Assembly: GCF_028274965.1 (NCBI RefSeq)
Contig: NZ_JAQCNO010000049.1
Location: 1-54,123, forward strand
Direction of reading: 5' to 3'
From: Natronomonas sp.
GTDB taxonomy: Archaea > Halobacteriota > Halobacteria > Halobacteriales > Haloarculaceae
Length of the DNA: 54,123 nucleotides
Positions 6,093 to 24,305 of the stretch are shown here, piece after piece. The position numbers were made by a program, and so were the translations under genes. The notes below the pieces were generated by a model. It saw only the letters and a list, made by a program, of their open reading frames with translations, searched no databases and was not told the DNA's origin. The first letter of the stretch is position 1. Each line of letters begins with the position of its first letter.

Positions 6093-7277
6093 ATGAACGG
6101 AAACCGATTCGGGCGGCTCTTTCAGGTGACGACGTACGGCGAGAGCCACGGCGACGCGATGGGCGTCACCGTCTCGGGCTGTCCCGCCGGCGTCGAACTC
6201 GACGAGGACGTGATCCAGCGCGAACTCGACCGGCGCAAGCCGGGGCAATCGAAGATCACGACGAGCCGCGGTGAACCCGACGAGGTCCGGATCAACTCCG
6301 GGACCCTCGAGGGGTACACGACCGGCACGCCGATCGGGATGGTCATCGAGAACAAGGACGCGAAGTCGGGCAAGTACGAACCGTTCGTCACCGCGCCGCG
6401 GCCCTCCCACGGCGATTTCACCTACTCGGCGAAGTTCGGCACGCGCAACTGGGGCGGCGGCGGCCGCTCGTCGGCCCGCGAGACGGTCAACTGGGTCGCC
6501 GCGGGCGCGGTCGCAAAGCAGGTGCTCGAACAGTCCGAGCACGACGTCCGGATCAAGGCCCACGTCAACCAGATCGGCGACATCGAAGCGCCCGACGTCT
6601 CCTTCGAGGAGATGATCGAGCACAGCGAGACGAACGAGGTCCGCTGTGGGCACCCCGAGACGGCCGAGCGCATGCGCGAGTTGATCGACGAGTACCAGAC
6701 GGCGGGCGACTCGATCGGCGGCTCGATCGCCTTCGAGGTGCGCGGCGTCCCCCGCGGTCTCGGCGCGCCCCGGTTCGATTCGTTCCCCTCGCGGCTCGGA
6801 CAGGCGATGTTCTCGATCCCCGCGACGACCCACGTCGAGTTCGGCCTCGGCGCGGAGGCGCGGACGGTCGCCGGATCAGAGCGAAACGAGGACTGGACCT
6901 TCGACGATGGCGAACACATGGACACGGTCAGCGAACCGGGCGACCCGGTCCCGGTCGGGAACGACCACGGCGGCCTCCAGGGCGGCATCACGACCGGCCA
7001 GCCGATCTGGGGCGAGGCCACGTGGCACGCGCCGACCTCGATCCCGAAGCCCCAAACGACGGCCGACTGGGAGACCGGCGAGCACCGCGAGGAGCAGGTC
7101 ATCGGCCGCCACGATCCGGTCCTTCCGCCGCGGGGCGTCCCGGTCGTTGAGGCCGTGTTGCATCTGGTCGTTCTCGATTTCATGCTGCTCGGCGGGCGGA
7201 TCAACCCCGACAGGCTCGACGACGCCCCCGGCGAGTACGACACCCCCTATCACCCCTCGAGCCCCCGAAACGACTGA
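6093..7277 (+). CDS. aroC: Chorismate synthase
   Basis: Catalyses the last shikimate-pathway step, 5-enolpyruvylshikimate-3-phosphate to chorismate, with reduced FMN. The 394-residue product starts MNGNRFGRLFQVTTYGESHG, the family N-terminal signature. It also contains GMVIENKDAKS, the Arg-rich RGGGRSSARET-like loop (here GGGGRSSARETV), and the C-terminal HDPVLPPRGVPVVEA. The length matches monofunctional enzymes. I chose the ATG at the conserved N-terminus because the frame continues upstream without homology. Other aro genes are not in the window. Confidence 0.96.
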   Translation: MNGNRFGRLFQVTTYGESHGDAMGVTVSGCPAGVELDEDVIQRELDRRKPGQSKITTSRGEPDEVRINSGTLEGYTTGTPIGMVIENKDAKSGKYEPFVTAPRPSHGDFTYSAKFGTRNWGGGGRSSARETVNWVAAGAVAKQVLEQSEHDVRIKAHVNQIGDIEAPDVSFEEMIEHSETNEVRCGHPETAERMRELIDEYQTAGDSIGGSIAFEVRGVPRGLGAPRFDSFPSRLGQAMFSIPATTHVEFGLGAEARTVAGSERNEDWTFDDGEHMDTVSEPGDPVPVGNDHGGLQGGITTGQPIWGEATWHAPTSIPKPQTTADWETGEHREEQVIGRHDPVLPPRGVPVVEAVLHLVVLDFMLLGGRINPDRLDDAPGEYDTPYHPSSPRND

Positions 7278-7393
7278 GCGGCCCGCTCGGACCGCCCGGA
7301 CGCGAGGCGGCGATCCGGCCGCCGAGCGCTAACCGCCGACCCCGACCCCGGCCGTAGGGCGACGGCGTTCGACCCCACCGATCCGTGCGGTCA

Positions 7394-7402
7394 TTTTTAT
7401 AC
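7394..7402 (+). promoter_or_regulatory. TATA box of the CopD-like gene
   Basis: TTTTTATAC lies 25-33 bases before the ATG at 7427, one of the clearest archaeal TATA boxes in the window. It implies a nearly leaderless transcript. Confidence 0.65.
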
Positions 7403-7426
7403 GGCTGCCGGACTACGTTTCGCCCG

Positions 7427-7942
7427 ATGGCTGTTCTGACCGGCGCGTACGCCCTCCACGTGCTGTCGGCGGCTCTGTGGACTGGTGCGACCCTCTACGT
7501 CGTCTACGCCGTCCTCCCCGGCGGGGCCGACGGCCGCCTCTCGGCCGAGGCCTTCGTCGACGGGATCCATCGCCTGTTGATGATCACGCGCTGGACCGGT
7601 CTCGTTCTCCCGGCCACCGGCGCGTACCTGATCTGGGTGCTCTATGCGCCCCTCGAGACTCTGATGACGACCGCCCGCGGGTGGGCCGTCGTCGCGATGT
7701 TCGGCCTCTGGGGGACGATGAACACCCTGATCGAACTCGGGGTGTTCCGGACGCGTCGGTCCGTCGACGACGTCGGGGCGGTTCGGTACATGATCGAGGG
7801 GTTCCCGGCCGACGGACTCCGGGGCGGTCTGACCGCGGCGGATCTCGCCGCCGCCGCCCGCCCGTACCTCCTCGCCGCGGCGGCCTGTGCGGTCCTGTTG
7901 TTGGTCGACGCGGCGCTCTTGGCCGGCGGGATCCCGTCGTGA
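7427..7942 (+). CDS. CopD-like integral membrane protein
   Basis: A 171-residue protein with four likely membrane helices: near 5-30 (YALHVLSAALWTGATLYVVY), 48-70, 80-100 and 145-168. The N-terminal HVLSAALWTGA with its conserved His, and the ITRWTGLVLPATGAYL stretch, resemble the CopD/YoaI copper-resistance membrane family. Whether it handles copper is unproven. The ATG at 7427 is chosen over an in-frame codon at 7385 because it lies the right distance from a strong TATA box. Confidence 0.75.
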   Translation: MAVLTGAYALHVLSAALWTGATLYVVYAVLPGGADGRLSAEAFVDGIHRLLMITRWTGLVLPATGAYLIWVLYAPLETLMTTARGWAVVAMFGLWGTMNTLIELGVFRTRRSVDDVGAVRYMIEGFPADGLRGGLTAADLAAAARPYLLAAAACAVLLLVDAALLAGGIPS

Positions 7943-8014
7943 CCCCGGGTGATCGCGCTCGCGCGTTCGTGTCGCTCCGACGCCGTTAGGTACCGCCGCC
8001 GCCAAGCGACGCGC

Positions 8015-8509
8015 GTGGACGATCACACCCGCGACGACACCGTTGCCCCGCCGATTGCGGACGCTCCGACCGGGTGGCGCGCCGCCCGCGGGCCCTCGAA
8101 CGGGTGGGAACACGGCACGCTGCGCCGCGCCGTGATCCACGGCGTGCGCCTCTATAACGCGGGAGCGTACCACGAATCACACGACTGCTTCGAGGCGGAG
8201 TGGTACAACTACGGGCGCGGCACCACGGAGAGCGCGTTTCTCCACGGTATGGTCCAGGTCGCCGCCGGCGGGTACAAACACGTCGACTTCGAGGACGACG
8301 CCGGCATGCGCTCGCTGTTCGAAACCGCCCTCGAGTACCTCCGGGACGTGCCGAAGGACTACTACGGCGTCGACGTCTCCGACGTGCGGCGGGCGCTCGC
8401 CGACGCGCTTGAGGACCCGACGGCGATCGACGGGTGGGCGATCGGACTCGACGGCGCGCGGCCGGAGGCGACCCCGGCCGACTACCGCTACGCCGAAACG
8501 CTGGAGTAG
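8015..8509 (+). CDS. DUF309 domain protein
   Basis: A 164-residue cytoplasmic protein of unknown function. The signature [20 protein letters not shown] at about residues 45-64 matches the DUF309 HE-containing helix pair, followed by [16 protein letters not shown] start at the GTG giving VDDHTRDDT, with a TTAGGTACC box 23-31 bases upstream. The longer frame from 7949 would overlap that promoter. It follows the CopD-like gene on the same strand by 72 bases but seems to have its own promoter. Confidence 0.83.
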
Positions 8510-8571
8510 CGCCGATCGGCCGGGCGCCGATCCCGAAACCGACGGTCTCGTCGGACGCGTCGACGCCCCGA

Positions 8572-9045
8572 TCAGAGGTCCTTCGCGATCCCCCGGAGGC
8601 CGTTCATCCGGTCGCGCTGCGTGCCAACCTCCGTGGGGTCCATCACGGTCGATAGCCGACTGTCCTCGACGAGTTCTCTCGCGAGCCACGCGACGCGCCG
8701 TTCGATTTCGGCCCCCCGGAGGTACGCTCCGACTCGCTCGAGTTCTCGCTCCGTCGGGCGTTTCCCGCCGTCGGGATGTCGGAGTCGTTGAACGAGAGCC
8801 ACCGGCTCGGTCGTCCCGTCGGGGCCCGCTGCGCCCTCCGTGACGAGCAGCGCACGCACCGTCATCGGAGCGATCTCCTCGCGGTCGTCGTACCCAAGCT
8901 CGTCGACGAGGAGCGCGCTCGCCCGCGCCGACAGGACGAGGGTCTTTCGGGCCGGGGCGCCGGACCCCTCGCTCGCCGGGGCGAACGTCGCCGACACCGC
9001 CGCTTCGCCCTCGTCGGTGCGGGACAGACGCGGATGGTCGATCAT
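8572..9045 (-). CDS. Conserved haloarchaeal hypothetical protein
   Basis: A 157-residue soluble, charged protein starting MIDHPRLSRTDEGE. The middle ARASALLVDELGYDDREEIAP and the C-terminal EIERRVAWLARELVEDSRLS are predicted helical. I do not recognise the family, and no catalytic motif stands out. It is convergent with the DUF309 gene and divergent from tRNA-Leu. An in-frame codon at 9069 would add an Arg-rich start; the ATG at 9045 looks more natural. Confidence 0.65.
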   Translation of the reverse strand: MIDHPRLSRTDEGEAAVSATFAPASEGSGAPARKTLVLSARASALLVDELGYDDREEIAPMTVRALLVTEGAAGPDGTTEPVALVQRLRHPDGGKRPTERELERVGAYLRGAEIERRVAWLARELVEDSRLSTVMDPTEVGTQRDRMNGLRGIAKDL

Positions 9046-9108
9046 ACCGACCGTTCGACGGCGACGCACTTCTGTCGTTTCCTTCCGGCCGCGCGAACGG
9101 AAACCGGT

Positions 9109-9119
9109 GGGTTAAATCC
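9109..9119 (+). promoter_or_regulatory. TATA-like box of tRNA-Leu
   Basis: GGGTTAAATCC lies 27-37 bases before the tRNA 5' end. Confidence 0.5.
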
Positions 9120-9145
9120 GGTGCGGTCGCTATCGGTGACCGCGT

Positions 9146-9229
9146 GCGAGGGTAGCCAAGCCTGGAAACGGCGGCGGACTCAAGATCCGCTCCTGTAGAG
9201 GTCCATGCGTTCAAATCGCATCCCTCGCA
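9146..9229 (+). tRNA. tRNA-Leu (anticodon CAA)
   Basis: A class II tRNA of 84 bases. Acceptor strands GCGAGGG and CCCTCGC pair with discriminator A. The anticodon stem GCGGA/TCCGC holds loop CTCAAGA, giving CAA for codon UUG. The long variable arm (TCCTGTAGAGGT) is typical of Leu. The T-arm is ATGCGTTCAAATCGCAT. No intron and no encoded CCA. The minus-strand frame of the DUF3006 gene reads straight through this gene. Confidence 0.95.
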
Positions 9230-9231
9230 CT

Positions 9232-9748
9232 GGTGGCCTCGCGGCCCCTCGCAAACGGCGGGCGGTCGCCACCGCGCGGGCGTGACCGAACCAACGCCCC
9301 GGTGGCGGCCCATCAGTGCGGGAAGACCGCTCGCGGAGCGGCCTTCCCTCGCGACAACTTTCCGAACGCGTAGCGACCTCGCCGCCCCGATCGCGGCCTC
9401 CGCGCGGCGATCGGATCGGGCGTCGAACTGTCGTGAGTTGGCCTCGAGTTCCCGCGAACGCGCCCGCTGGCGTCGGTCCGTGGCCGCCGGGTCGTACGCG
9501 TAGTGCGTCCCCCGTACGCGCAGAACCGCCCCCTCGTGGCGGCCCGCCTCCGGCACCGCATCCAGCGCGACGACGCGCTGTCCGACCTGCTCGCCGCCCG
9601 CCTCGAGCAGTATCACGGCGCTTTCGCTGCCCGTCCGTTCGACGACGCCCGTCCGTTCGACCGCGGGTTCGGCACCCGCCGTCGGCGCTATCGGTACGCC
9701 CGAGACGACCACGACGACGAGCACCGCGATCAGCGACCGTTGATCCAT
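9232..9748 (-). CDS. Exported DUF3006 domain protein, 3' end unresolved or degraded
   Basis: The ATG gives a signal peptide (MDQRSLIAVLVVVVVSGVPI, Ala-rich cleavage region near 25). Residues 27-100 match the small DUF3006 beta fold, with VERTGVVERTGSESAVILLE, a central VVALDAVP and a C-terminal YDPAATDRRQRARSRELEA helix, where the family normally ends. Here no in-frame stop follows: the frame stays open through the antisense of tRNA-Leu and down to 8177. The tail after about residue 120 has no protein-like character. I set the left boundary just short of the tRNA. A lost stop or a frameshift is likely. Confidence 0.5.
9321..9347. other. Long near-perfect hairpin
   Basis: Arms GGAAGACCGCTC and GAGCGGCCTTCC pair over 12 positions with one mismatch around a GCG loop. 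It lies where the DUF3006 coding region would be expected to end. No T-run follows on either strand, so termination is possible but unproven. Confidence 0.5.
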
Positions 9749-9862
9749 CGCGCGGGAGTGGCCGGGCCATCGTAGATAAACCGCGGGGCGTCGGGCGGGG
9801 CCGGGGGCGTCCGACCCGCGTCTGACGGAGAACTATGTGTGCTCGGCGTCTTCGGTCCGACG

Positions 9863-11791
9863 ATGGCCGAGGAAACGATCACCGTCGGCGAAACGACCGC
9901 GGGGTCCGGGGCTGGGACGGCGGTCGATCTCCCCGTCGTCGACGTGCTGACCGGTCGGGGGTTCGTGACGGGAAAAAGCGGCAGCGGGAAGTCGAACTCG
10001 GCGAGCGTCGTCTGCGAGAAACTCCTGGACGAGGGCTACGGCATCCTGATCGTCGACATCGACGGCGAGTACTACGGCCTCAAAGAGGAGTACGAGATCC
10101 TCCACGTCGGCGCCGACGAGGAGTGCGACCTCCGGGTGAACGTCGAACACGCCGAGAAGATCGCCCAACTCGCGCTCGAACGGAACGTGCCGATCATCCT
10201 CGACGTCTCGTCGTTCCTCGACGAGTCAGACGCCCGAGAGCTCCTGACGGAGGTGACGAAACAGCTGTTCGTGAAGGAAAAGAAGCTGAAACAGCCCTTC
10301 TTGATGCTCGTCGAGGAGGTCCACGAGTACGTCCCTGAGGGCGGCGGGATCGACGAGTGCGGCCGGATGCTCATCAAGATCTCGAAGCGCGGCCGGAAAC
10401 ACGGCCTCGGGATCGTCGGCATCAGCCAGCGCCCCGCGGACGTCAAAAAGGACTTCATCACCCAGTGCGACTGGCTCGTCTGGCACCGGCTGACGTGGAA
10501 CAACGACACCAACGTCGTCGGCCGGATCCTCGGCAGCGGGTACGCCGATGCGGTCGAGGACCTCGCGGACGGCGAGGGGTTTCTCATGACGGACTGGAAC
10601 GAGTCCGTGTCGCGGGTGCAGTTCGAGCGCAAGCGGACCTTCGACGCCGGCGCGACGCCCGGCCTGGAGGATTTCGAGCGCCCCGAACTGAAAAGCGTCA
10701 GCGGCGACCTCGTCGACGAACTCGAGGAGATCACCGACGAGCGAGACCGACGCCAGAACCGGATCGCCGAACTCGAATCCGAACTCGAACGCCGCGAGGA
10801 GCGCATCGAGGACCTCGAACGGCAGCTCTCGGAGGCCCGGGACCTCGAGCGGATGGCCGATCGCTTCTCGCGGGCGATGATGGAGCAGGTCACCGGTCGG
10901 CCGCTGTCGGCCGCGACGGGACGACAGAGCGAACTCGACGAGGCCGCCCCGGGATCGCTCCGGCGCGACCCGGAGCTCGAAGCCGAACTCGACGCGGTCC
11001 GGAACGGCGAGGCCGAACCGACGCCGCCGCCCGTCCCCGACGCCGCCGAGGAGCGAAACGGCGACGGCGACGGCGGCGCCGATCCCGAGGAGGGGTCGGC
11101 GTCCCGAGCCGACGACTCGACGACGGGGGACCGATCCGAGGGCGCCTCAACGGGCGGCGCGGACGACGCAGCGGACGGAAACACGCGGGACGCCCCCGAT
11201 CGGAGCGAGGACGCTTGGGACTTCGAACCGTTCGGGACGGGCGCCTCGACGGACGCGGACGCCGCGATGGACGCGCACCGCGGCGCCTCGACGGACGGGT
11301 CAGACCGACCCGATCCGGGGCGTCCGACCCGCGAGGCCGCCTCGTTCCCGGACGAGGATCCGCTCGTCGCGGGGCTCCGGGACGAACTCGACGAGCTCTC
11401 GGAGACGGCCCTCGGGATGCTCAGGCGGTACCGGACGCACGGCCCCGCGACGCCACAGGAGGTCCACGCCATGGCCGGCGGCGCGGGCGATCGCGGCCCC
11501 GCCTACGCGGCCAACCGGACGCTTCGGCGCCGCGGGTTCGTCGAACACGTCGGTCGCGGGCAGTACGACTACGCGCTCTCTCGGCTCGTTCGCGAGGAAC
11601 TGTCCGATCCGCTCCGCCCGAACCGGACGCCGGGGGAGGGCGCGGTCGAGGACCTCGTCGACGCCGTCGAGGCCGCGTTTCTCGACCGAGCCTCGGGGAC
11701 CGACGGCGCCGCCGACGCCTCGGGACGGGCGGACGATCGGCCGGCCGGAACGGTGAGCGACGGGCCTCTCGATCCCTCGCCGGAGCTATAG
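9863..11791 (+). CDS. HerA-like DNA translocase ATPase with coiled coil and C-terminal winged helix
   Basis: A 642-residue P-loop ATPase of the HerA/FtsK group (DUF87-like), of the haloarchaeal kind. Walker A is GKSGSGKS at 37-44 and Walker B is [12 protein letters not shown] at about 146-157 with tandem Glu. [19 protein letters not shown] is the sensor-like strand of this group. A Glu/Arg coiled coil covers about 275-335. Then comes a long acidic disordered linker, and a winged-helix-like domain at about 520-590 ([20 protein letters not shown]). No nurA, mre11 or rad50 gene is nearby, so a role in end resection is not supported by context. I chose MAEETITVG as start; a GTG 24 bases upstream is possible. 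It overlaps the convergent tpiA by six bases. Confidence 0.88.
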
Positions 11792-12421
11792 CGGTTCGAC
11801 GAGCGCCTCGAGCGCCGCTCGGGGGTCGTCCGCCTTGGCGACGCCGGAGGCCAAGAGGACGCCCTCGGCCCCGAGATCGGCGGCGGCGGCGACGTCGGCG
11901 CCCGTCGAGATCCCGGCCCCACAGAGAACGGGGACGCCCTCGGCGGCGGCGCGAACGGACTCGGTGACGACGTCTGGGTCGGCCTTCGAGACGGGCGTTC
12001 CGGTCCCGATGAGTTCCGGCGGTTCGACGGCGACCGCAGCGGGAGCCAGCCGCGACGCCGCGGCGACCTGTCTCGGGTTGTTCGCACAGACGATCGTCCC
12101 CAGTCCGGCCCGCTTAGCCGCCCGCACCCCGGCGTCGATGTCGGCGAGCCGGAGCCGCCGCTCGGAGTGGTTGAGAAGCGCCCCGCTCGCCCCGGCGCGG
12201 GCGATCGCCGCCGCGAGCGTCGATCCGGTGTGCGAGCCGTGTCCGACCCCCGAGACGTGTTGGGCCCACGTCTCGACGCCGGTCGAGGCGACGGACTCGA
12301 TATCGGCCGTCTGCGGGGCGACCGCGATCCGGACGCCCGTCTCCTCGGCGACCTCGCCCGCGACCGTTGCGATCTCGACCGGATCGCAGGGGTAGGCCTT
12401 CAGATTGAGTACGACGAACAT
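11786..12421 (-). CDS. tpiA: Triosephosphate isomerase
   Basis: Interconverts dihydroxyacetone phosphate and glyceraldehyde-3-phosphate. The 211-residue length matches the short archaeal form. Catalytic residues are visible: Asn6 and Lys8 in VLNLKAY, His85 in LLNHSERR, and Glu133 in [12 protein letters not shown]. The phosphate loop [10 protein letters not shown] is present. A TATA-like box at 12442-12452 fits the ATG. The last bases overlap the end of the convergent HerA-like gene. Confidence 0.96.
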
Positions 12422-12441
12422 ACCGACCCGGCGGCGGCCAC

Positions 12442-12452
12442 GGAAAAATACC
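12442..12452 (-). promoter_or_regulatory. TATA-like box of tpiA
   Basis: On the minus strand it reads GGTATTTTTCC, 21-31 bases before the ATG. Confidence 0.55.
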
Positions 12453-12534
12453 TGTCTATGAACGACGGCGGTCGCGCCGGGCGCTCCGAGGGGCCTTCGT
12501 GGGGTTCTTATCCGTATGCGCCGACGGTACGGGT

Positions 12535-13776
12535 ATGGACTCTGCCCGGAGACGCCGGACGTTTCTCGCCGGACTCGTCGGCGCCGGCACCGCCGTCACC
12601 GGGTGTATCGGCGGTGGCAACAGCAACGGCAACGGTGGCGGTGACGACGGCGAGGAGCCGCCGGAACCGACCCCCGACGACGAGCGCGAGCCGGTTTCGG
12701 GTTCGTGGGCGACGTTCGCCCACGACGAGGCCAACACCGGACACTCCCCGGGGATCGACGGCCCCGCCACCGAGATCCGGCGGGCGTGGCGCTTCGAGAC
12801 GGGCGGCCCCGTAACGGCGAGTCCGGCCATCGCCGGCAACACGCTGTACGTCGGCTCGACCGACGGCTCCGTGTACGCCCTCGATCCGTACGTCGGCGCG
12901 GAGATCTGGTCGTTCGAGACCGGGGCTCCCGTCTCCTCGACGCCCGCCGTGCGCGACGGGACCGTCTACGTCGGCTCCGGCGACGACCACCTCTACGCCC
13001 TCGACGCCTCCGACGGAACCGAGCGCTGGCGGTTCGACACCGCCGGCCGCGTCGGTTCGAGCCCGACCGTCGGCGAGACGCTCGTGTACGTCGGGTCGGT
13101 GAGCAGCGCCGCCTACGCGGTCGACCGCGAGACCGGCGAGCGGGCGTGGCGGCTCCAGGCCGGCGCGTCGGTCCTCGGTGCGCCGGCGCTCTCGGCGGAC
13201 GGCGAGACGGTCTACGTCGGATCGAGCGACCAGCGCGTGTACGCCCTCGAGGCGACCGAGGGGACCGAACGGTGGTCGTTCCGGACCGACGGCGCGGTCG
13301 CCGGCGCGCCGGTCACCGCCGGCCGAACGGTGTACGCCGGCTCGCGGGACGACAACGTGTACGCCCTTGAGGCCGACTCCGGCGAGACGCGCTGGGCGTA
13401 CGACGTCGAGGGACAGATCCAGGGCAGCCCCGCGGTCACCGACGCCGGGATCTACGCCGGATCGAGCGACGGCGGGCTGTGGGCGATCGACCCCGGCGAC
13501 GGCTCGCCGACGGGCCGTTGGCGGTTCAGCACCGGCGGCCCGGTCACCGCGAGCCCCGCGGCGACGGCCTCGCACGTCTTCGCCGCGTCGACGAGCGGGA
13601 ACGTCTTTGCGATGCTCCCGGGCGACGGCGGGACCGTCTGGCGGATCGACGCCGGCTCGGAGATACAGGCCGGTCCGGCCGTCGCCGAGGAGTGGCTCTA
13701 CTTCGGGGCGACCGACGGGTCGGTGTACGCGCTCCGGTCGGGGTCCGGGTCCGGGTCCGGGTCCGAGTCCGAGTGA
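12535..13776 (+). CDS. Tat-exported PQQ-type beta-propeller lipoprotein
   Basis: A 413-residue protein anchored outside the cell. The N-terminus carries a twin-arginine signal ([14 protein letters not shown]) and a haloarchaeal lipobox ending VTGC at about residue 22. A Gly/Asn/Asp spacer follows. Residues 65-400 are about eight copies of a PQQ-enzyme-like blade built on the pattern LYVGSxDxxVYALDxxxGxxxW. These repeats often form structural propellers without PQQ, so enzyme activity is not implied. The C-terminus is an SG/SE dipeptide run encoded by a hexanucleotide repeat. The ATG lies about 22 bases after a TTCTTATCC box. Confidence 0.9.
13741..13770 (+). repeat. Hexanucleotide repeat (GGGTCC/GAGTCC)x5 in coding sequence
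   Basis: Four GGGTCC units and one GAGTCC encode the Ser-Gly/Ser-Glu tail of the propeller lipoprotein. Change by whole units keeps the reading frame. Confidence 0.8.
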
Positions 13777-13829
13777 GCGGGCGAGGGCGAACGCAAACGG
13801 GATTACGTTCCGAGCCCTACGAGCGGGCA

Positions 13830-16181
13830 ATGGGCGCGTGCACGCTCTGTGAGTTGCCGACGCCCCCAACGCCGGTGACCGACGACGGCGTCGAGGGGGA
13901 GTTCTGCTGTCGGGGCTGTCTCGAGGTGTACCGGAGCCTCGGCGACGTCGACCCCGACGCCGTCGAGGCCGAGGACATCGGAACGCCCGAGGGCGCAAAC
14001 GAGGTCCCCGAGGACGCCGAAACGGCGTACCTCTCGATCGACGGGCTGCACTGTTCGACCTGCGAGCTGTTCATCGAGGCCACCGCGAGCGACATCGAGG
14101 GCGTGTACGCCGCCGAGGCCAGCTACTCGACCGACATGGCGCGCGTGAGCTACGACCCCGAGACCTGCGATCGGGCCGCGCTGCCGGAGCGACTCAGCCG
14201 GTTCGGCTACTACGCGTCCGAACCGGGCGAGGAGCCCGAGGGCTTTCTCGACCGGCTCTCGTTCGGCGACTACCGCTCCGTCGTTGCGATCCTCGTGATG
14301 ATGCCCGTCATGGCGCCGTACCTGCTTTTCGTCTACCCGACGTACCTGGGGATCTACCCGCGCTCGTTTCTATTCGAGTCGAACCTCTATTTCATGGTCT
14401 TCGTCCCGCTTTTCGTCTGGAGCACGCTCATCGTCGTCGGCGTCGGATACCCCTTCTTCAGAGGGGCGTACGTGAGCCTGCGGGTCGGTCAGCCGAACAT
14501 GGACGTCCTGATCGCGCTCGCGGTGAGCGCCGCGTACCTCTACTCGGCGGCGTCGCTTTTCGTTCTGGAGGGCCGGACGGTGTACTTCGACGTGGCCGTG
14601 ATGATCCTTGCGGTCGTCACCGTCGGCGATCACGTCGAGTCGCGCTTCAAGGAGCGCGCCCTCGGCTACTACTCCGAGTTGGCGGAGTCGCGGGCGACGC
14701 GCGCGAGGCGGCTCCTCGAGGACGGCTCGAGTGAGGAACTCGACCCCGAGGCGTGTCGCCCCGGCGATCGGCTCCTCGTCCGCCCCGGAGAGCGGGTCCC
14801 GACCGACGGGCGCGTTCTCGACGGGACGGCGGCCGTCGACGAGTCCGTCGTCACCGGCGAGTCGATCCCCGTCGAGAAATCCCCCGGCTCGTCGGTGATC
14901 GGCGGGTCGATCGTGACCGACAACGCCCTCGTCGTCGAGGTCGGCGCCGACGGCACGAGCACCGTCGACCGGCTGATGGAACTGCTGTGGTCGGTCCAGA
15001 GCGCCGACGCCGGCGTCCAGCGGGTCGCGAACCGCTTCGCGCTGGTGTTCGTCCCGGTCGTCGCCGCGATCGCGGTGGCGACGACGCTCGGGTGGCTCTC
15101 GCTGGGCCGTCCCCTCAGCGAGGCGGTCCTCATCGGCGTCTCCGTGCTCGTCGTCTCGTGTCCCTGCTCGCTCGGGATCGCGACGCCGCTCGCGCTCGCG
15201 GCCGGATCGAACGCCGCCTCCGAGTCCGGGCTGTTGGTGTTCGAGGCGTCCGTCTTCGAGCGCGTCACCGAGGCCGACACCGTCGCCTTCGACAAGACGG
15301 GGACCCTGACGACGGGGGAGATGTCCGTCGTCGACGTCGTCGGCGACGATCCCGAGGCGGTGCTGCGGCACGCGGCGGCCGTCGAGGAGCGCTCGAACCA
15401 CCCGATCGGCGGGGCGATCCTCGAGGCGGCCGCCGACGTGCCCGCGGACGTCTCCGGGTTCGAACGCAACCCCAGAAGCGTCGCGGCGACGGTCGACGGC
15501 GACCGGACGCTCGTCGGACACCCCGACACCTTCGGGTCCGCCGAGTGGCGGTACCCGACGGACCTCAAGGCGGCGGTGGAATCGGCCAGAGCCAACGGCA
15601 CGCACCCGACGCTCGTCGGGTGGGACGGCGCCGTCCGGGGCGTGATCGTCGTCGAGGACACCCCGCGGCCGGAGTGGCGCGAGGCGGTCGAAGCGCTGAG
15701 CGACGACGCCGACACCGACGTCGTCGTCATCACCGGCGACGACGAGCGCGTCGCGGCCCGCTTCGAGGACGCCCCCGGCGTCGATCGGGTGTTCGCCGAG
15801 GTCCGCCCCGAGGCCAAACGCGAGTTGGTCCGCAGGCTCCGCAGCGAGGGCCCCGTCACGATGGTCGGTGACGGGACGAACGACGCGGCGGCGCTCGCAA
15901 GCGCCGATCTCGGGATCGCGATGTCGCACGGAACCGAACTGACGATCGACGCCGCCGACGCCGTCGTGACGAACGACGACCTCTCGACGGTCCCGGCCTT
16001 CTTCGACACCGCCGAGCGCGTCCGGGCGCGGATCAGACAGAACCTCCTCTGGGCGGTCGGCTACAACCTGGTTGCGATCCCCCTTGCCGTCGTCGGCTTC
16101 ATCAACCCCCTCATCGCCGCCGTGTTGATGGCCGCGAGCAGCCTGATCGTCGTCTCGAACTCGAAGCGATCGCTGAGCTGA
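13830..16181 (+). CDS. Heavy-metal P1B-type ATPase, CcoI/FixI-like copper transporter
   Basis: A 783-residue metal pump. An N-terminal Cys-rich domain (CTLC at 4-7, CCRGC at 26-30) matches the metal-binding domain seen in CcoI/FixI-type ATPases. A heavy-metal-associated domain follows with GLHCSTCEL at 72-80. About eight membrane helices surround the catalytic core: actuator TGES at 342-345, ion-binding CPC at 444-446 (VVSCPCSLG), phosphorylated Asp in DKTGT at 488-492, SNHPIGGAI, and GDGTNDAAAL. CPC with these N-terminal domains points to Cu(I). CcoI-type pumps supply copper for oxidase assembly, but no oxidase gene is adjacent. I start at MGACTLCELP. Confidence 0.92.
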   Translation: MGACTLCELPTPPTPVTDDGVEGEFCCRGCLEVYRSLGDVDPDAVEAEDIGTPEGANEVPEDAETAYLSIDGLHCSTCELFIEATASDIEGVYAAEASYSTDMARVSYDPETCDRAALPERLSRFGYYASEPGEEPEGFLDRLSFGDYRSVVAILVMMPVMAPYLLFVYPTYLGIYPRSFLFESNLYFMVFVPLFVWSTLIVVGVGYPFFRGAYVSLRVGQPNMDVLIALAVSAAYLYSAASLFVLEGRTVYFDVAVMILAVVTVGDHVESRFKERALGYYSELAESRATRARRLLEDGSSEELDPEACRPGDRLLVRPGERVPTDGRVLDGTAAVDESVVTGESIPVEKSPGSSVIGGSIVTDNALVVEVGADGTSTVDRLMELLWSVQSADAGVQRVANRFALVFVPVVAAIAVATTLGWLSLGRPLSEAVLIGVSVLVVSCPCSLGIATPLALAAGSNAASESGLLVFEASVFERVTEADTVAFDKTGTLTTGEMSVVDVVGDDPEAVLRHAAAVEERSNHPIGGAILEAAADVPADVSGFERNPRSVAATVDGDRTLVGHPDTFGSAEWRYPTDLKAAVESARANGTHPTLVGWDGAVRGVIVVEDTPRPEWREAVEALSDDADTDVVVITGDDERVAARFEDAPGVDRVFAEVRPEAKRELVRRLRSEGPVTMVGDGTNDAAALASADLGIAMSHGTELTIDAADAVVTNDDLSTVPAFFDTAERVRARIRQNLLWAVGYNLVAIPLAVVGFINPLIAAVLMAASSLIVVSNSKRSLS

Positions 16182-16277
16182 CCGCGTTTCAGCGGGCGCT
16201 CAGATCCTCTCAGCGCGTCGACGCCCGGACCGACGCTCGGGCGGCCGATCCGCGGCGGTAGTCGCCCGCCGGCGAGA

Positions 16278-16538
16278 TTACGCGCCGACGGCGTCCGTCC
16301 CCGCCTCGTCCGACTCGGCGAGGTGGTAGTTCGACTTCCGTGCGTCCATCAGGTAGACGCTCTCCTCGACGATGTCGACGTCCTCCAGTTCGTTCAGCGC
16401 GTGGCGGACGGTCCGCTGGGGCAGAAGCGACGCGTCGGCGAGTTGCGCCTGGGTCATCGGCCCCTCGTACTGCAGCGTTTTATAAACCAACTTCGCGCTC
16501 GGTGGAAGCGAGGCGACTGCCGACTCGGTCTCTGACAT
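16278..16538 (-). CDS. Small winged helix-turn-helix protein
   Basis: An 86-residue DNA-binding-type protein. Residues 12-60 form a MarR/TrmB-like winged helix, with LVYKTLQYEGPMTQAQLADA, the recognition-helix region LPQRTVRHALNELEDVD, and a wing (VEESVYLMDARKSNYHL). It has no effector domain. Its target is unknown. It is convergent with the copper ATPase gene, ending 97 bases from it. A GGTTAAGC box and a stronger AT-rich box at 16606-16617 lie upstream. Confidence 0.8.
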   Translation of the reverse strand: MSETESAVASLPPSAKLVYKTLQYEGPMTQAQLADASLLPQRTVRHALNELEDVDIVEESVYLMDARKSNYHLAESDEAGTDAVGA

Positions 16539-16605
16539 GCGTATCTCATCGACCCCCGGACGCTTAACCGTCGTTCGGTCTGGTCAATCGCACACATTTA
16601 CGCCG

Positions 16606-16617
16606 TGGATATTTATA
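16606..16617. promoter_or_regulatory. Strong TATA-like element between two minus-strand genes
   Basis: GATATTTATAGG is the most AT-rich stretch for hundreds of bases. Read on the minus strand (CCTATAAATATC) it lies about 70-80 bases before the HTH gene start, which would give a leader of about 45 bases. No plus-strand gene follows. Confidence 0.4.
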
Positions 16618-16642
16618 GGGTTATGCGAACCGCCGGCCGGCG

Positions 16643-16864
16643 TTACCCCTCGTCCCGCTCGTCCAACAGCCCGAGGTCGGCGGCGACGTAGTCCGCGAGC
16701 CGATCGAACACGTCCGGGTCGACCGCCGCCACCGTCTCGCCGCCGTGTCGCTCCTCGTTGTGCCGCTCGACGGTCGCCTCCACGTCCGGGAACGGGACCG
16801 ACGTCCGCGTTCCGCACTCGGGGCAGACGACCGGGATCGCCGGCGGGCCGGTGTCGTCGCTCAT
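16643..16864 (-). CDS. Small zinc-finger protein
   Basis: A 73-residue protein with one putative zinc site: CPECG near residue 14 followed by two histidines in VERHNEERHGGE, giving a C2H2-like spacing. The C-terminal half is acidic and helical (FDRLADYVAADLGLLDE). It resembles the many small zinc-ribbon proteins of haloarchaea; function is unknown. A TATA box at 16887-16896 gives a nearly leaderless transcript. Confidence 0.75.
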   Translation of the reverse strand: MSDDTGPPAIPVVCPECGTRTSVPFPDVEATVERHNEERHGGETVAAVDPDVFDRLADYVAADLGLLDERDEG

Positions 16865-16886
16865 ACCCTTTCGGTCGGTCTCGCCC

Positions 16887-16896
16887 GGATAAAACC
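16887..16896 (-). promoter_or_regulatory. TATA box of the small zinc-finger gene
   Basis: On the minus strand it reads GGTTTTATCC, 23-32 bases before the ATG at 16864. Confidence 0.6.
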
Positions 16897-16941
16897 GATG
16901 CGATCGATCGGGGCCGGGCGCCCCTCGCCCCGTCGGCTCCG

Positions 16942-18111
16942 TCAGGCCGGCTGAGCCGGCAGCGCCGACAGCGCCCGAGCGAGCTCTCGGGTGTCCGGGA
17001 GCACGTACAACTGGGCTTCGGCCTCCTGATCCCCGAGTTCGATCGCCGTGTCGACGGTGAAGGCGTACTCCTGGTCGCCGGAGAGCCGCTGTTGGACCGT
17101 CCGGATGACGCTCGACCCCGTGTCTCGCATGAACTCCGGCGGCGTGTGCTCGATGCTGCTCTGTAGCGTGTTCGCCCAGCTGTCGATGAAGCCGCTCGTG
17201 ATGATGTTCCCGAGTTCCTCGATGGCCGCCTCGGTCATGCCGTCGCCGACGGCGCCCCCTCCCGGCGTCATCGCGGCGGCGATCCGCTTGGCGGAGGACT
17301 CGGTGAACATGGCGATGAAAAAGCCGCTCGGCAGACCGCTCAACTCGAAGACGACGCTGACGTACTCGCCGCCGCCGATCTCCGCCGACATGTCAGAAAA
17401 GGAGAGAAACCGGAGCTGGCTCACCGTCACGTCGGTCCGAAGCCCGGTCAGCTGGGCGATCTGCTCGGAGGCCCGTGCGGCGCTCCGGCTGGCGAACCCG
17501 TTGAACACGGTGAGCTTATTCGCCGGAACGGCGATCCCGCTCGGTTGGCCCTCCAGTAGCTTCACGAACTCGCAGTACTCGGGGATCAGGTAGATCGGAA
17601 CGGAGAGATCGTGCGACACGGCCTCGAGGCGGCTCTCGAAGAGGAACGCGCCGTGTTCGGCGGCGTTTCGCTTCGTCAGCCGCGGGAGGATGCGGGTGCC
17701 GGTCGCCTCGAGGTACGTCGGCGGTGTGATGTCGACGGACGTGTCCAGGTGGTTCGCCCACCCGTCGATGAACCCGCCGATCATGATGTTTCCGAGCTCG
17801 GCGAAGGGGCCGCCGGCGAGCGAGCTCTCGCCGCCCCGCGAGCGGAGCTGTCTCCGGAGCTGGCCGGCGGAACCGGGGTCGAAGATCAACACCGTCTCCC
17901 CCGAGATGCCGCCGCTCAGACCGACCTGGACGCCGACGTAGCGGTGCCCGGTGAAGATGTTCTCCAGGGCCGACTCCGAAACTAAGCTGACGCCCGTCGT
18001 CTCGTTTCGCATCCGGACGCCCGTCATCTGAGAGAGCGACCGCGCGGCCTGTTTGGCGCCCCGCGACGCGAGTTGGTTGTACGCCTCGAGTTGGCTGATG
18101 GCGATCTTCAC
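16942..18111 (-). CDS. cheC: Double-domain CheC-type CheY-P phosphatase
   Basis: Expected to dephosphorylate CheY-P in archaellum-based taxis. The 389-residue product contains two CheC domains. Each carries a full catalytic Glu-Asn signature: FAELGNIMIGGFIDGWAN at about residue 103 and IEELGNIITSGFIDSWAN near 300. Both sites are therefore probably active, as in multi-domain haloarchaeal CheC proteins. Other che genes are absent from this window. About 100 bases upstream the minus strand reads GTTACTATACC, a possible promoter with a leader. Confidence 0.9.
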   Translation of the reverse strand: MKIAISQLEAYNQLASRGAKQAARSLSQMTGVRMRNETTGVSLVSESALENIFTGHRYVGVQVGLSGGISGETVLIFDPGSAGQLRRQLRSRGGESSLAGGPFAELGNIMIGGFIDGWANHLDTSVDITPPTYLEATGTRILPRLTKRNAAEHGAFLFESRLEAVSHDLSVPIYLIPEYCEFVKLLEGQPSGIAVPANKLTVFNGFASRSAARASEQIAQLTGLRTDVTVSQLRFLSFSDMSAEIGGGEYVSVVFELSGLPSGFFIAMFTESSAKRIAAAMTPGGGAVGDGMTEAAIEELGNIITSGFIDSWANTLQSSIEHTPPEFMRDTGSSVIRTVQQRLSGDQEYAFTVDTAIELGDQEAEAQLYVLPDTRELARALSALPAQPA

Positions 18112-20050: not shown

Positions 20051-21589
20051 GTGTCGACGCAGGACGGGCGCTTCGTTCGGTTGCTCTCGATCCCGGCCGC
20101 GGCCGCCGAGCGCCTCTCGGCGTACGCGGTCGACGACGCGGTCTCGTATTTCGACCCCGACGGGCTCCTCGTGCCCGGCGAACGGAGCCCCCGGGGTCAC
20201 GCGACGGTGCGGAACGCCGCGTCGGCGCGGCCCGCGATCCACCCGCAGTTGGGCCGCGCCGACGACGGGATCGAGCACGTCCGCTTCGGTCCCGACGGGC
20301 GTCGCTCGGAGGCGGCGGGCCCGCCGTCGCCCGGAGCGATCGATCTCCTCGCGGTCCACTCGGGGGACGTGTTGGCCGCCCTCGGGGAGCGACTGGCCTC
20401 CGGGGAGCGCTCGACGGGCGCGGACGCGGCCACGTACCTCTTCGTTCCGGAACTCTCAATCGAGGCCGACACGACGGCGCTCTCGGCCGATCTCCCGCAC
20501 GCCGCCGACGTGGCGGCGATCGCGGACGAACTCCCCGAACCGGTGGTCGTCCTCGCCGGCGGACAGCCGGCCGGCTACCACCACGTCTGGCGACTCGCCG
20601 GGCGCGACGCCAAGGCGAGCGTCGAGGTCGCGGTCGTCGGACTCGGGGGCGGCGGACCCGACGGCGGCGAGGACCGCCTCGCCGGGGTAGCCTGTACGGC
20701 CCGCGGCGCGGCCGCCGCCGAGACCGTCCCGCCGGACTCCTTCGGCCTCCGGGCGCTCGAGGGCGTCGGCCCGGCGATAGCGGACCGCCTCGGATCGCTC
20801 GGCTGTCGGACCCGCGGCGACGTCCGAAACACCGCCGTCTCCGAACTCGCCGCCCTCGAGGGGCTCGGACGCGAGGGGGCCGAACGGCTCCACGCCCACG
20901 CCGAGGTGATCGCCTCGGGGGAGCCGCTGGTGCTCACGAACGAGACGCCGGTGCGGACCCGAAGCGGCCGCCCCCCGTTGTGTCTCGACGTCGAGACCGA
21001 CGGGCTCTCGCCGACGATCATCTGGCAGTTCGGCGTCTACGACCCGGCGGCGGACGCGTACCGGGCCTTCACGGAGCGATCGACCCCGACGGACCCGGCC
21101 GGCGTCCTCGGTGAGTTCATCGAGTGGCTGTTGGGCACCCACGCCGACCGGACGCTTCTGACGTGGAACGGGTCCGGCTTCGATTACCCCCAGATCGAGC
21201 GGTTCCTCCGTCGGCACTACCCGGAGTACGTCGACGCCTGGCGGGACCTCTGGACGTACGATCTGTACCAGTGGGCGGTCAGGGACGGTAACGCCCTGCT
21301 GCCGGGGCGGACGAACCGCCTCGACGACGTCGCCAGGGCGCTCGGGTACGAACGCGCCGCGAGCGGGCTCTCCGGGGCACAGACCGCGGCCGCCTACCGC
21401 CGGTTCATGCGGCGACCGACGGACCCGGCCGCCGAACCCGACTGGGAGCGCCACGAGGCGTACTGCCGGGACGACTGCGAGGCGCTGTACCGCGTCTACG
21501 ACGCGATCGAGACGGCCGACCGACGCGACGTGACCGACAGCGGGGCGGGCGGGGCCGCCGGCAGACAGAGCGGACTGACGGAGTTCTGA
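20051..21589 (+). CDS. YprB/MrfB-like DEDD nuclease with helix-hairpin-helix and C-terminal PIP-like motif
   Basis: A 512-residue predicted exonuclease. An N-terminal region of about 225 residues is unassigned. Residues 231-290 carry two helix-hairpin-helix motifs (ALEGVGPAIADRLGSLG and ALEGLGREGAERL). An RNase H-like domain spans 308-485 with acidic residues Asp313 and Glu315 (LCLDVETDGLS), Asp378 (NGSGFDYPQ) and Asp474/475 (YCRDDCEALY). It ends QSGLTEF, which fits a PCNA-binding QxxLxxF box. One base separates its stop from the helicase start, so the two are almost certainly co-translated. In Bacillus, YprA/YprB (MrfA/MrfB) repair mitomycin damage. The start is GTG, after a CCTTATG box. Confidence 0.88.
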   Translation: MSTQDGRFVRLLSIPAAAAERLSAYAVDDAVSYFDPDGLLVPGERSPRGHATVRNAASARPAIHPQLGRADDGIEHVRFGPDGRRSEAAGPPSPGAIDLLAVHSGDVLAALGERLASGERSTGADAATYLFVPELSIEADTTALSADLPHAADVAAIADELPEPVVVLAGGQPAGYHHVWRLAGRDAKASVEVAVVGLGGGGPDGGEDRLAGVACTARGAAAAETVPPDSFGLRALEGVGPAIADRLGSLGCRTRGDVRNTAVSELAALEGLGREGAERLHAHAEVIASGEPLVLTNETPVRTRSGRPPLCLDVETDGLSPTIIWQFGVYDPAADAYRAFTERSTPTDPAGVLGEFIEWLLGTHADRTLLTWNGSGFDYPQIERFLRRHYPEYVDAWRDLWTYDLYQWAVRDGNALLPGRTNRLDDVARALGYERAASGLSGAQTAAAYRRFMRRPTDPAAEPDWERHEAYCRDDCEALYRVYDAIETADRRDVTDSGAGGAAGRQSGLTEF

Positions 21590-21590
21590 C

Positions 21591-24305
21591 ATGGATGACA
21601 CACGCCCACCGGACGGTCGCACGCTCGTCGAACGGTTTCCGAGACGCGGACTGACGACCGACTCCGGGCGCGTCTCGACGGTCACGGTCCCACCCCGGGA
21701 GGCCGCTACCGTCCCGGCCGACGGCACGTTGCCGCCGGCGCTCGCGGAGCCGTACCCACACGAGCTGTACACCCACCAGGCCGCGGCGCTTTCGGCGCTC
21801 TCCGAGGGCAAGAACGTCTGCGTCTCGACGTCGACCGCAAGCGGCAAGACCCACGTGTACGCCCTCCGGATCGCCCGACACCTCCTCGAGTCCGGGGTCA
21901 TCGCCCCCGACGGGAGCCGAACGGGCGATCCCTCGGCGGGGTCGACGGCGCTCTGTGTGTACCCGATGAAAGCGCTGACGAAGGACCAACACGAGGCCCT
22001 CGAGGCGCTGTACGACGCGCTCGGTCTCGACGTCCGGGTCCGGGTGTACGACGGCGACACGCCCCGGGCGTCGCGCCGCGAGATACGCGAGAGTGCCGAC
22101 GTCGTTCTGACGAACTTCCAGGCGCTGCACGTGTACCTCGAACACCACGACCGCTGGAGCCGGTTTTACAGCGCCGTCGATCTGATCGCGATCGACGAGT
22201 CCCACACCTACACGGGCGTCCAGGGGATGCACGTCGCGTGGATCCTCCGCCGGCTCCGCCGCGTCATCGAGTACTGGGGCGGGGACCCGGAGTACGTCCT
22301 CACCTCGGCGACGATCGGGAACCCGGCGGCTCACTCCGCCGAGTTGCTCGGCGAGCCCGTGACCGTCGTCGACGACGACGGCTCCCCGCGAGGCCCCCGC
22401 GACGTCGTCCTCTGGAACCCGCCGCCGACGGAGGGCCCGACCGACGAGTCGGTGCCGGACGAGCCGACGACCGACCCCGAATCCGCCTCCGACTCAGAGG
22501 AGGGCGTAACCGACCGCGTCCCGGCCAGCGTCGAGGCGCCGCGGGTGTTCGGCCACCTCACCGCCCGCGACGTCGAGACGCTTCTGTTCTGTCCGAGCCG
22601 CAAGCTGACCGAACTGAGCGTCCGCCGGGCCGCCGAACACGTCCGGAGCGAACCGCACGCCTACGACGCCGGAACGCCCCCGCTCGAACCGTACCACGCC
22701 GGACTGGGCAAACGGACGCGTCACGCCCGCGAGCAGGCGTTCAAGACGGGCGACGTGACAGGTCTGGCGACGACGTCGGCGCTGGAACTCGGGATCGACA
22801 TCGGCTCGCTCGAGGCGGCCGTGCTCATGGGCTACCCCGGTCAGCGGCAGTCGTTCCGACAGCGGATCGGCCGGGCCGGCCGTGGCACCGAGCGCAGCCT
22901 CGCGGTCATGATCGCCGACCACCGGACCCTCGATCAGTACGTCGTCTCGAACCCCGAGTACCTCCTCGAGACGTCCGTCGAGGACGCGGTCGTCGACGTC
23001 TCCAACGACGCGGTCTTCGCCCGACACCTGCTCTGTGCGGCCGACGAGATCGCGATCGGGACCGACGACCTCGATGCGTTCGCCGACGCCGACCGGCTCG
23101 AACGCGCGATCGAGATGTGGCGGCGGGCCGGTCGACTCGAGGGCCACCCCGAGTCGGCGGTCCACTACGTCGGCCCGCGGCGGCCACAGAGCCGCATCAG
23201 CGTCTACGGGACCGACGAGACGGAGTTCCGGCTCGAGTTGTCCGACGGCGTCGACCGCGCCCGGTGGGGCCTCCCGGAGGACGTCGACCTCGAGCCCGTC
23301 GGGCGCAACCGCGCCTACCGGGACTACCACGAGGGGGCCGTCCGGCTCCACGACGGCCAGCAGTTCGAGGTCGTCTCCGTGGACGAAACGCGCCGCCGAC
23401 CGACGATCGAACTCGCGCCCGTCGACGTCGACTACTACACCCGGACCCGCTCGGACGTGACCGTCATGGACGCCGAGTCCGAGCGACACCGAACGATAAA
23501 CGGGTTCGAACTCCACTTCGGACGCGGGACCGTCCTCGTCCATCACCACGCGTACGATCGGGTGTCGATCGACGACAGCGACCCCGAGGAGGCCGCGATC
23601 CCGACGGGGACGCCGCCGATATCGATGGACACCCAGCTCTGTTGGGTCGAGGTCCCCGAGGGGATCGAATCGGCGCTGGTCCGGAAGTACCGCGAGTACG
23701 GCGTCGAAACGGGCGTCGACCCCGACGACCCACAGCCGCCGCACCTCGGGTACGTCGCCGGACTCCACGCCGCCGAGCACGCGACGATCCAGACCGCGCC
23801 GCTCGAGTTGCGCGTCGACAAGGGCGATCTCGGCGGGCTCGCGACGCTCGCGTTGGACACCCACTACGCCCACCGCGAACTGGAGCCGCTCTCGGAGACG
23901 ACCGACGACTCGCTTGCGGCCGCCGAACACGCCCTCAGGCGCCGCGGGCGGGAACTCGACACGACGCCGTCGTCCGGCTGGTTCGTGTACGACGGCGTCG
24001 AGGGCGGGCTCGGCTTCGCGCGGGCGATCTACGACTCCTTCGAGGCCCTCGCCGAACGGGCCCGCGATCAGCTCCGCGATTGTGAGTGCGGGCGGCCGAA
24101 CGGCTGTCCGGCCTGCACCTTCGACGAGAACTGCGGCAACGACAACCGGCCGCTGTTGCGCGCCGCGGCGATCGACACGCTCGATGCGCTCCTCGGCGAG
24201 CGGACGCCCGGGTCCTTCGACCCGGAGCGGTCGGCGTCCGACTCGGATTCCGATTCCGACTCGGACTCCGGGGACGACCGCCGTCCGGTCGTGTTCTACT
24301 CCTGA
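21591..24305 (+). CDS. YprA/MrfA-like DExH superfamily 2 helicase with DUF1998 zinc domain
   Basis: A 904-residue DNA helicase. The N-terminal motor has YTHQAAAL near 60-67, Walker A TSTASGKTH at 80-88, motif II DESH at 202-205, and helicase motifs later (TSALELGIDIG, RQRIGRAGRG). The C-terminal DUF1998-type region holds four cysteines in CECGRPNGCPACTFDENC, the zinc site of MrfA. The tail is an Asp/Ser dipeptide run before VVFYS. The gene follows the nuclease by one base. The MrfA family translocates 3' to 5' and works with MrfB in excision of bulky or crosslinked lesions; that role here is inference from synteny. Confidence 0.93.
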   Translation: MDDTRPPDGRTLVERFPRRGLTTDSGRVSTVTVPPREAATVPADGTLPPALAEPYPHELYTHQAAALSALSEGKNVCVSTSTASGKTHVYALRIARHLLESGVIAPDGSRTGDPSAGSTALCVYPMKALTKDQHEALEALYDALGLDVRVRVYDGDTPRASRREIRESADVVLTNFQALHVYLEHHDRWSRFYSAVDLIAIDESHTYTGVQGMHVAWILRRLRRVIEYWGGDPEYVLTSATIGNPAAHSAELLGEPVTVVDDDGSPRGPRDVVLWNPPPTEGPTDESVPDEPTTDPESASDSEEGVTDRVPASVEAPRVFGHLTARDVETLLFCPSRKLTELSVRRAAEHVRSEPHAYDAGTPPLEPYHAGLGKRTRHAREQAFKTGDVTGLATTSALELGIDIGSLEAAVLMGYPGQRQSFRQRIGRAGRGTERSLAVMIADHRTLDQYVVSNPEYLLETSVEDAVVDVSNDAVFARHLLCAADEIAIGTDDLDAFADADRLERAIEMWRRAGRLEGHPESAVHYVGPRRPQSRISVYGTDETEFRLELSDGVDRARWGLPEDVDLEPVGRNRAYRDYHEGAVRLHDGQQFEVVSVDETRRRPTIELAPVDVDYYTRTRSDVTVMDAESERHRTINGFELHFGRGTVLVHHHAYDRVSIDDSDPEEAAIPTGTPPISMDTQLCWVEVPEGIESALVRKYREYGVETGVDPDDPQPPHLGYVAGLHAAEHATIQTAPLELRVDKGDLGGLATLALDTHYAHRELEPLSETTDDSLAAAEHALRRRGRELDTTPSSGWFVYDGVEGGLGFARAIYDSFEALAERARDQLRDCECGRPNGCPACTFDENCGNDNRPLLRAAAIDTLDALLGERTPGSFDPERSASDSDSDSDSDSGDDRRPVVFYS
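24240..24269 (+). repeat. Hexanucleotide repeat (GAYTCS)x5 in coding sequence
   Basis: Units GACTCG, GATTCC, GATTCC, GACTCG and GACTCC encode the (Asp-Ser) run near the helicase C-terminus. Confidence 0.75.

Follow-up and report, generated by a model that had tools for sequence, protein, structure and literature searches.

A haloarchaeal exonuclease–helicase gene pair with a conserved PIP-like tail, a possible clamp-tethered analogue of Bacillus MrfAB

Among described systems, Bacillus MrfAB (YprA/YprB) is the main reference for the locus considered here. In the accessible part of PMC11194089, MrfB is characterized as a DEDDh exonuclease with the catalytic residue His258 and with TPR. The YprA family is the subject of a preprint (PMC12458937), whose accessible text distinguishes a repair branch, whose members may or may not have an MrfB partner, from the defence branches and names halophilic archaea, in the places found, only for BRIGADE; the supplements of this preprint may list the pair. 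Another relevant group of proteins is formed by archaeal clients of PCNA. According to the accessible parts of two reviews, Fen1, RNase H2 and NreA bind PCNA, the motif being QXXhXXaa (MacNeill, PMC4929162), and, for the PCNA of Haloferax volcanii, binding of Fen1, RNase H2 and other proteins via QxxLxxFx is predicted (PMC7776575). In the text accessible to us, no paper among the matches listed (subscription papers aside) describes the haloarchaeal pair or its tail.

The DNA analyzed here as a whole (the window) is a stretch of 54,123 nucleotides from Natronomonas sp. It contains the genes of an exonuclease and of an MrfA/YprA-family helicase, both on the plus strand and separated by a single base (Table 1), in agreement with the first-pass annotation of this DNA. 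From the N- to the C-terminus, the nuclease consists of an N-terminal domain, a helix-hairpin-helix (HHH) motif, an RNase_H_2 domain of the DEDDy type, a linker and a PIP-like tail. HHH_5 is matched in all 77 aligned members of the nuclease family. The extra N-terminal stretch, initially estimated at about 225 residues, comprises the 228 residues that precede the HHH; these give no Pfam match in the protein from the window. The helicase carries the MZB domain, which we take to be the four-Cys DUF1998 domain named in that annotation, and five cysteines fall within its residues 831-848. The adjoining nuclease–helicase pair with a PIP-like tail is thus confirmed as a real feature of the locus.

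Table 1. Positions of the exonuclease and helicase genes and of their parts in the window
Feature	Coordinates	Strand	Details
Exonuclease gene	20051..21589	+	512 aa, GTG start
N-terminal domain, residues 1-228	20051..20734	+	runs along the family alignment
Helix-hairpin-helix, residues 234-284	20750..20902	+	HHH_5, Pfam E 3.5e-07
RNase_H_2 domain, residues 310-485	20978..21505	+	PF13482 E 4.4e-26
Variable linker ahead of the tail	21506..21565	+	entropy of about 3 bits from -10 to -3 before Q
PIP-like motif QSGLTEF	21566..21586	+	conservation in relatives, own-genome pattern scan
MrfA/YprA-family DExH helicase gene	21591..24305	+	904 aa
Helicase DEAD domain, residues 61-243	21771..22319	+	PF00270 E 9.2e-26
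Helicase C-terminal domain (Helicase_C), residues 325-431	22563..22883	+	PF00271 E 1.1e-12
MZB ('MrfA Zn-binding domain'), residues 728-843	23772..24119	+	PF09369 E 4.5e-14
Cysteine cluster CECGRPNGCPACTFDENC, residues 831-848	24081..24134	+	from sequence

The nuclease was used as a query in 292 genomes of the class. Matches at E <= 0.001 are present in 151 of the 292 genomes, many of them short or restricted to the HHH, and 119 places in 111 genomes, including that of the window, match at E 6.9e-40 or better. All 119 loci were taken, being chosen by overall similarity and not by the tail motif. In each of them (119/119) a gene of an MrfA-type helicase lies downstream of the nuclease on the same strand. 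The distance between the two genes, which depends on the gene starts picked by a script for the relatives, is at most 5 nt in 80 loci (15 overlaps among them) and at most 30 nt in 98, while exceeding 100 nt in seven. The scan of named genomes yielded 114 nuclease relatives, and 80 loci were kept; some of them are apparently shared with the 119, so the two sets are not independent counts. Both the helicase and the C-terminal motif are present in 119/119 and in 80/80 loci, and the survey of further haloarchaeal genomes, proposed in the first-pass annotation, has thus revealed no orthologue without the motif, a case named there as refuting.

Two distant, weaker matches outside the 119 (L151, L152) have neither the helicase nor the tail; the other weak nuclease matches of the class survey were sampled in part (three). 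In L146 (133.6-kb contig of G213) the nuclease gene appears as two open frames, with the C-terminal tail and the helicase kept, and only the C-terminal nuclease piece of this locus is counted among the 119.

The distribution of the pair is patchy, as it was not found in 181 of the 292 genomes of the class, though the genome searches score few candidates per genome, and non-detection there is not proof of absence. Helicases of the wider family are present in 263/292 genomes at E <= 1e-30, and hence it is the nuclease partner that is rarer.

The C-terminus of the window's nuclease, QSGLTEF, had been read as a PIP-like box, and the comparison of relatives bears this reading out. Gln and Leu of QxxL are invariant in 119/119 nucleases (0 bits entropy). 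The tail has the form QxxLxx[FWY] in 116 of the 119 sequences and QGTLGD[VIA]Y, with the aromatic residue one position later, in the other three; position 6 is Asp in 111 and Glu in eight. In 93 of the 116 tails the aromatic residue is the last one, and in 23 one or two further residues come after it. The region ahead of the motif is variable: eight of the ten positions before Gln show an entropy near 3 bits, position -2 has 1.8 and position -1 has 2.6 bits, and the spacing between the catalytic Tyr and the tail Gln is 28-84 residues (119 sequences). In the alignment of 77 of the 119 nucleases (alignment A1, near-copies left out), 23 columns are invariant, and these include Q506 and L509 together with the catalytic residues. 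A scan of the last 25 residues showed the tail in 0/22 outgroup nucleases, 0/119 partner helicases and 0/30 other helicases. The conservation of the tail is far above what chance would give.

In the window's genome, the QxxLxxF-stop DNA pattern occurs at five sites and its reversed-pattern control at more (7 + 10 genome-wide), so the motif alone is not rare, and the weight therefore rests on its conservation and on the genes that carry it. Apart from the nuclease itself, the sites belong to RNase HII (QSGLDEF), a Hel308-type helicase (QSSLGDF), a contig-end fragment of 38 residues (QSRLGEF), and an open frame that matches no Pfam family. The fragment is 59% identical, over its 38 residues, to its relative L282, a family-4 uracil-DNA glycosylase (UDG) ending QSRLGDY, and by this similarity is itself assigned to family-4 UDG. 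Moreover, FEN1 of the same genome ends QTGLDRWS, and its Nre protein has QSDLSAF nine residues short of the end; the form of the tail agrees with that of RNase HII, FEN1 and Nre, accepted PCNA clients. The window's tail ends at PIP position 7, lacking the eighth, aromatic residue of the full QXXhXXaa motif, and so do RNase HII and the Hel308-type helicase of this genome. UDG and Hel308 bind PCNA, and interchange of Phe, Trp and Tyr is typical in PIP boxes. Taken together, the tail is very probably a PIP box, and the nuclease is likely to bind PCNA.

The nuclease was correctly recognized in the first-pass annotation as a DEDD nuclease. No variation is seen among the 77 aligned sequences at D313, E315, D378, Y471 and D475, which assigns it more exactly to the DEDDy type and not to DEDDh. 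The profile of the haloarchaeal family matches the MrfB structure (8un9) at E 0.044 over about 80 positions, compared to E 5e-35 for the profile of 12 MrfB-like relatives from the same phylum. The same-phylum relatives were found in the phylum-wide search as shorter RNase_H_2 proteins with an HHH-like stretch, encoded in genomes outside the class. They have the DEDDh active site; an MrfA-type helicase adjoins 11 of the 16 (two open frames in L247), five are without it, and the tail is present in 0/16. No TPR is seen among the 16 Pfam families matched at E <= 0.01 by any of the 77 haloarchaeal members (six of the 16 families are matched by one member each), and what follows the RNase_H_2 domain is the linker and the tail, not TPR.

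In the unrooted tree, B. subtilis MrfB groups with the same-phylum DEDDh set at 100/100, and the constraint that unites MrfB and the haloarchaeal clade gives p-AU 0.0097 and is rejected. The paired nucleases form one side of a branch both in one tree (100/99) and in the tree with MrfB (97/96); these unrooted trees include 31 of the 119 paired nucleases and some long branches, and the one with B. subtilis MrfB omits L258 and L238, which are long branches in the other nuclease tree. In the tree including L258, the paired nucleases join the metallophosphatase-fused set at 92/76, this join depending on the midpoint root beside the long L258 branch. The profile comparison gives E 1.2e-33 for the HHH-DEDDy module of the metallophosphatase-fused nucleases (5 rows) versus E 2.1e-21 for the DEDDh MrfB-like set (12 rows). 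TIGR03491 is matched by 77/77 members; the window's nuclease scores 39 bits, under the cut-off of 97.45, and its match covers only positions 214-459 of this model, whose N-terminal part is RecB/Cas4.

The assignment of the nuclease to MrfB is disfavoured by the profile search, the catalytic residues and the trees. By sequence, it is not MrfB and would belong to another branch of the RNase_H_2 superfamily, the nearest module by profile being the HHH-DEDDy one that is otherwise fused to a metallophosphatase. Calling it 'MrfB' would be a wrong name transfer, and the initial identification of the pair with Bacillus MrfB/MrfA is supported for the helicase and not for the nuclease.

Two other types of RNase_H_2 proteins were observed in haloarchaea. 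L151 and L254 (the latter with its close kin L255 and L256) are metallophosphatase-HHH-RNase_H_2 fusions; no PIP-like tail is present in L151 and L254, the two tested, and no helicase partner is seen beside them within the stretch taken. L258, from contig C72 of the window's genome, is a solo RNase_H_2 protein (406-aa open frame) with the motif Y-N-R-E-D; it adjoins an ORF that looks, by eye, like a lipoate-protein ligase, and the stretch around it has no MrfA-type helicase.

The partner is an MrfA-family helicase, as was claimed, with the MZB domain; among solved structures, B. subtilis YprA/MrfA (6znp) is closest to it in sequence (E 2.4e-92, 313 bits), the second-best chain reaching only 69.5 bits. 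Its score against TIGR03817 is 468.6 bits; L259, a haloarchaeal helicase from the solo group, scores 724 bits. In the unrooted helicase tree, which includes 23 of the 119 paired helicases, three groups stand apart from one another (the paired, the solo haloarchaeal and the same-phylum MrfA-like helicases), and B. subtilis MrfA is placed with poor support. By BLAST scores of B. subtilis MrfA, the same-phylum set is the nearest one, followed mostly by the solo and then by the paired helicases, with overlaps. Two profiles found no nuclease beside the solo haloarchaeal helicases in 19/19 loci, a subset of the helicase matches.

When N-terminal fragments from 10 different members of the nuclease family were compared with Pfam, none matched at the curated cut-off; four of the 10 gave stray matches below threshold (E 0.0023-0.045), spread over five different families. 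Two candidate origins of this domain, a remnant of the metallophosphatase and a remnant of the MrfB-like N-terminus, were rejected, as neither shows profile similarity (the metallophosphatase profile has 5 rows).

In the window, the pair is surrounded by genes that look, by eye, like chromosomal housekeeping ones, with proteasome alpha and SBDS-like ORFs downstream. In 33 of the 35 loci L049-L083 (except L054 and L063), the divergent upstream gene reads, by eye, as thymidylate synthase, which looks more like stable synteny than like a defence island. Clustering of neighbours showed no third gene common to all groups, the recurring neighbours being group-specific. Matches to the nuclease are present in 47 plasmid records, 25 of them covering over 80% of its length, and some of the weaker ones resemble the metallophosphatase-fused type; in 8/8 annotated plasmid neighbourhoods a DEAD/DEAH box helicase gene directly follows the nuclease. 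No match was found in 50,697 phage records. Copies of the pair are present on the Halobacterium salinarum plasmid PHS3 (OE_RS12870/OE_RS12865, tail QGTLADFSR) and in four Haloferax species (L161, L206, L226, L227), which makes the clamp idea testable by a short C-terminal truncation.

Some plasmid loci contain additional genes. On PHS3, the pair is followed by a small third RNase_H_2 gene (214 aa, positions 9945-10589 of L278). On a Natronosalvus amylolyticus plasmid (L286, positions 1-17437), the pair is part of an island that also encodes a second MrfA-family helicase with MZB, a protein annotated as an ATP-dependent DNA helicase, a weak PLD-like protein and, as an Mre11/Rad50-like combination, a metallophosphatase and an SMC-like ATPase. 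Related copies with the tail QTGLMDF are found in L089, L091, L093, L094 and L099-L101; these seven nucleases are mutually 79-99% identical, suggesting recent spread, and the island is possibly a mobile repair or defence island. On a Halorubrum ezzemoulense megaplasmid (L289, positions 6301-14968), the pair is situated between a DNA adenine methylase gene and genes of 6-pyruvoyl tetrahydropterin synthase, QueE and QueC.

The reading that we prefer, an analogue of MrfAB that is tethered to the clamp and uses another kind of exonuclease, has to be weighed against several others. The pair could be the archaeal orthologue of Bacillus MrfAB that has merely acquired a PIP box, as its helicase is of the MrfA family with MZB and close to 6znp, an exonuclease-superfamily domain is encoded next to it in a generally similar layout, and, the trees being unrooted, a root within the MrfB side is conceivable. 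Against this, the nuclease is DEDDy, where MrfB is DEDDh and uses His258 (accessible part of PMC11194089). Moreover, no TPR is seen among the Pfam families of the 77 members, the match to 8un9 is far weaker than that of the same-phylum profile, and MrfB takes its place in the same-phylum set with full support, its union with the haloarchaeal clade being rejected; we consider such orthology quite improbable. Docking of the tail on the partner helicase or some protein other than PCNA would be consistent with the tail being present, among the nucleases scanned, only in those with a helicase partner, but RNase HII, the Hel308-type helicase and the UDG of the same genome end in the same motif, and the aromatic residue varies between Phe, Trp and Tyr in the manner of PIP boxes, which leaves this reading very little room.

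The function of the pair is also subject to alternatives. An anti-virus or anti-plasmid defence module, similar to YprA-family DISARM, Druantia, ARMADA and BRIGADE, is suggested by the patchy distribution and the plasmid copies (both of which would also fit a mobile role), by the island composition of the plasmid lineage described above (weak PLD-like protein, second MZB helicase, metallophosphatase/SMC-like pair), by one copy near DNA adenine methylase and QueC/QueE genes, and by matches of the helicase to defence-helicase models, the best being DruE3 (E 2.5e-43). Still, at 146 bits, DruE3 is well behind the repair-type TIGR03817 and 6znp, and the best stretches of the helicase cover only parts of DruE3 and of other defence models; the nuclease has no PADLOC match (0 families), the thymidylate-synthase-like neighbour is common to 33/35 loci of one group, and the PIP-like tail suits replication or repair. 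Based on this comparison, which covers the clustered neighbours and the eight annotated plasmids that were read, a defence role is unlikely. A somewhat better chance, although clearly a minor one, is given to a replication-associated role, in which the pair would process RNA-DNA hybrids, flaps or stalled forks instead of excising damaged bases: the form of the tail is common to RNase HII, FEN1 and the Hel308-type helicase, a helicase-exonuclease pair is suited to stalled-fork processing, and a thymidylate-synthase-like gene is the neighbour in one group. It is opposed by the failure to find the pair in 181/292 genomes and by the closest studied helicase, MrfA, being a DNA-damage factor, as stated in the accessible parts of PMC12458937 and PMC11194089.

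A role of the pair in DNA repair or at the fork is, on the whole, probable, and its mode of action is most likely that of MrfAB; towards the haloarchaeal clamp-tethered analogue of MrfAB, with its complete clamp-directed mechanism, we lean slightly at most. As the motif suggests, the nuclease would be docked on PCNA by its flexible C-terminal QxxLxxF tail, and with such tethering the pair would act where PCNA is loaded, that is, at replication forks or repair gaps. By analogy with its family, the MrfA-type helicase may translocate in the 3'-5' direction, opening the damaged or blocked duplex, while the HHH would touch DNA and the DEDDy domain degrade the exposed strand 3'-5', as expected for these domain families. 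It may be speculated that polymerase and ligase then receive the gap from PCNA. The helicase–nuclease principle does not require tethering, since pairs of the same-phylum MrfB-like set have no tail.

It is conceivable, though we hold this only tentatively and a little short of an even balance, that a divergent MrfA-type helicase and an HHH-DEDDy exonuclease, with its unassigned N-terminal domain and a PCNA tail, make up a second excision machine of haloarchaea, one that is directed by the clamp and runs in parallel to MrfAB, another MrfA-like helicase persisting without a nuclease neighbour. If true, bulky or crosslink lesions would have, apart from UvrABC, a separate route coupled to PCNA. 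The pair would also be a likely addition to the archaeal PCNA interactome beyond its known core.

Compared with known systems, the pair resembles archaeal PCNA clients (RNase H2, Fen1, NreA) in the terminal QxxLxxF/W form, seen in the same genome, but these clients, which have C-terminal PIP motifs, include no comparable pair of a helicase and an exonuclease. The metallophosphatase-HHH-RNase_H_2 nucleases and TIGR03491 (TM0106 family) contain the HHH-DEDDy module closest by profile, while differing in the N-terminal domain, in having no helicase in the stretch taken, and in the lack of the tail. The same-phylum MrfB-like set (L239-L253, L257) shares the RNase_H_2 domain after an HHH-like stretch and, in 11/16 cases, the helicase beside it; in contrast, its members have the DEDDh site (HN[RK][QK]D), shorter open frames (354-433 aa) and no tail (0/16). 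As in Bacillus MrfAB, a gene of an MrfA-type MZB helicase is adjacent to a gene of an RNase_H_2/DnaQ-fold exonuclease, whereas the haloarchaeal exonuclease is DEDDy, has an HHH, an N-terminal domain of its own and a PIP-like tail, with no TPR found, and groups apart from MrfB, the paired helicase forming a separate clade. These systems thus allow one helicase-exonuclease principle to be compared in a putatively clamp-tethered and an untethered version.
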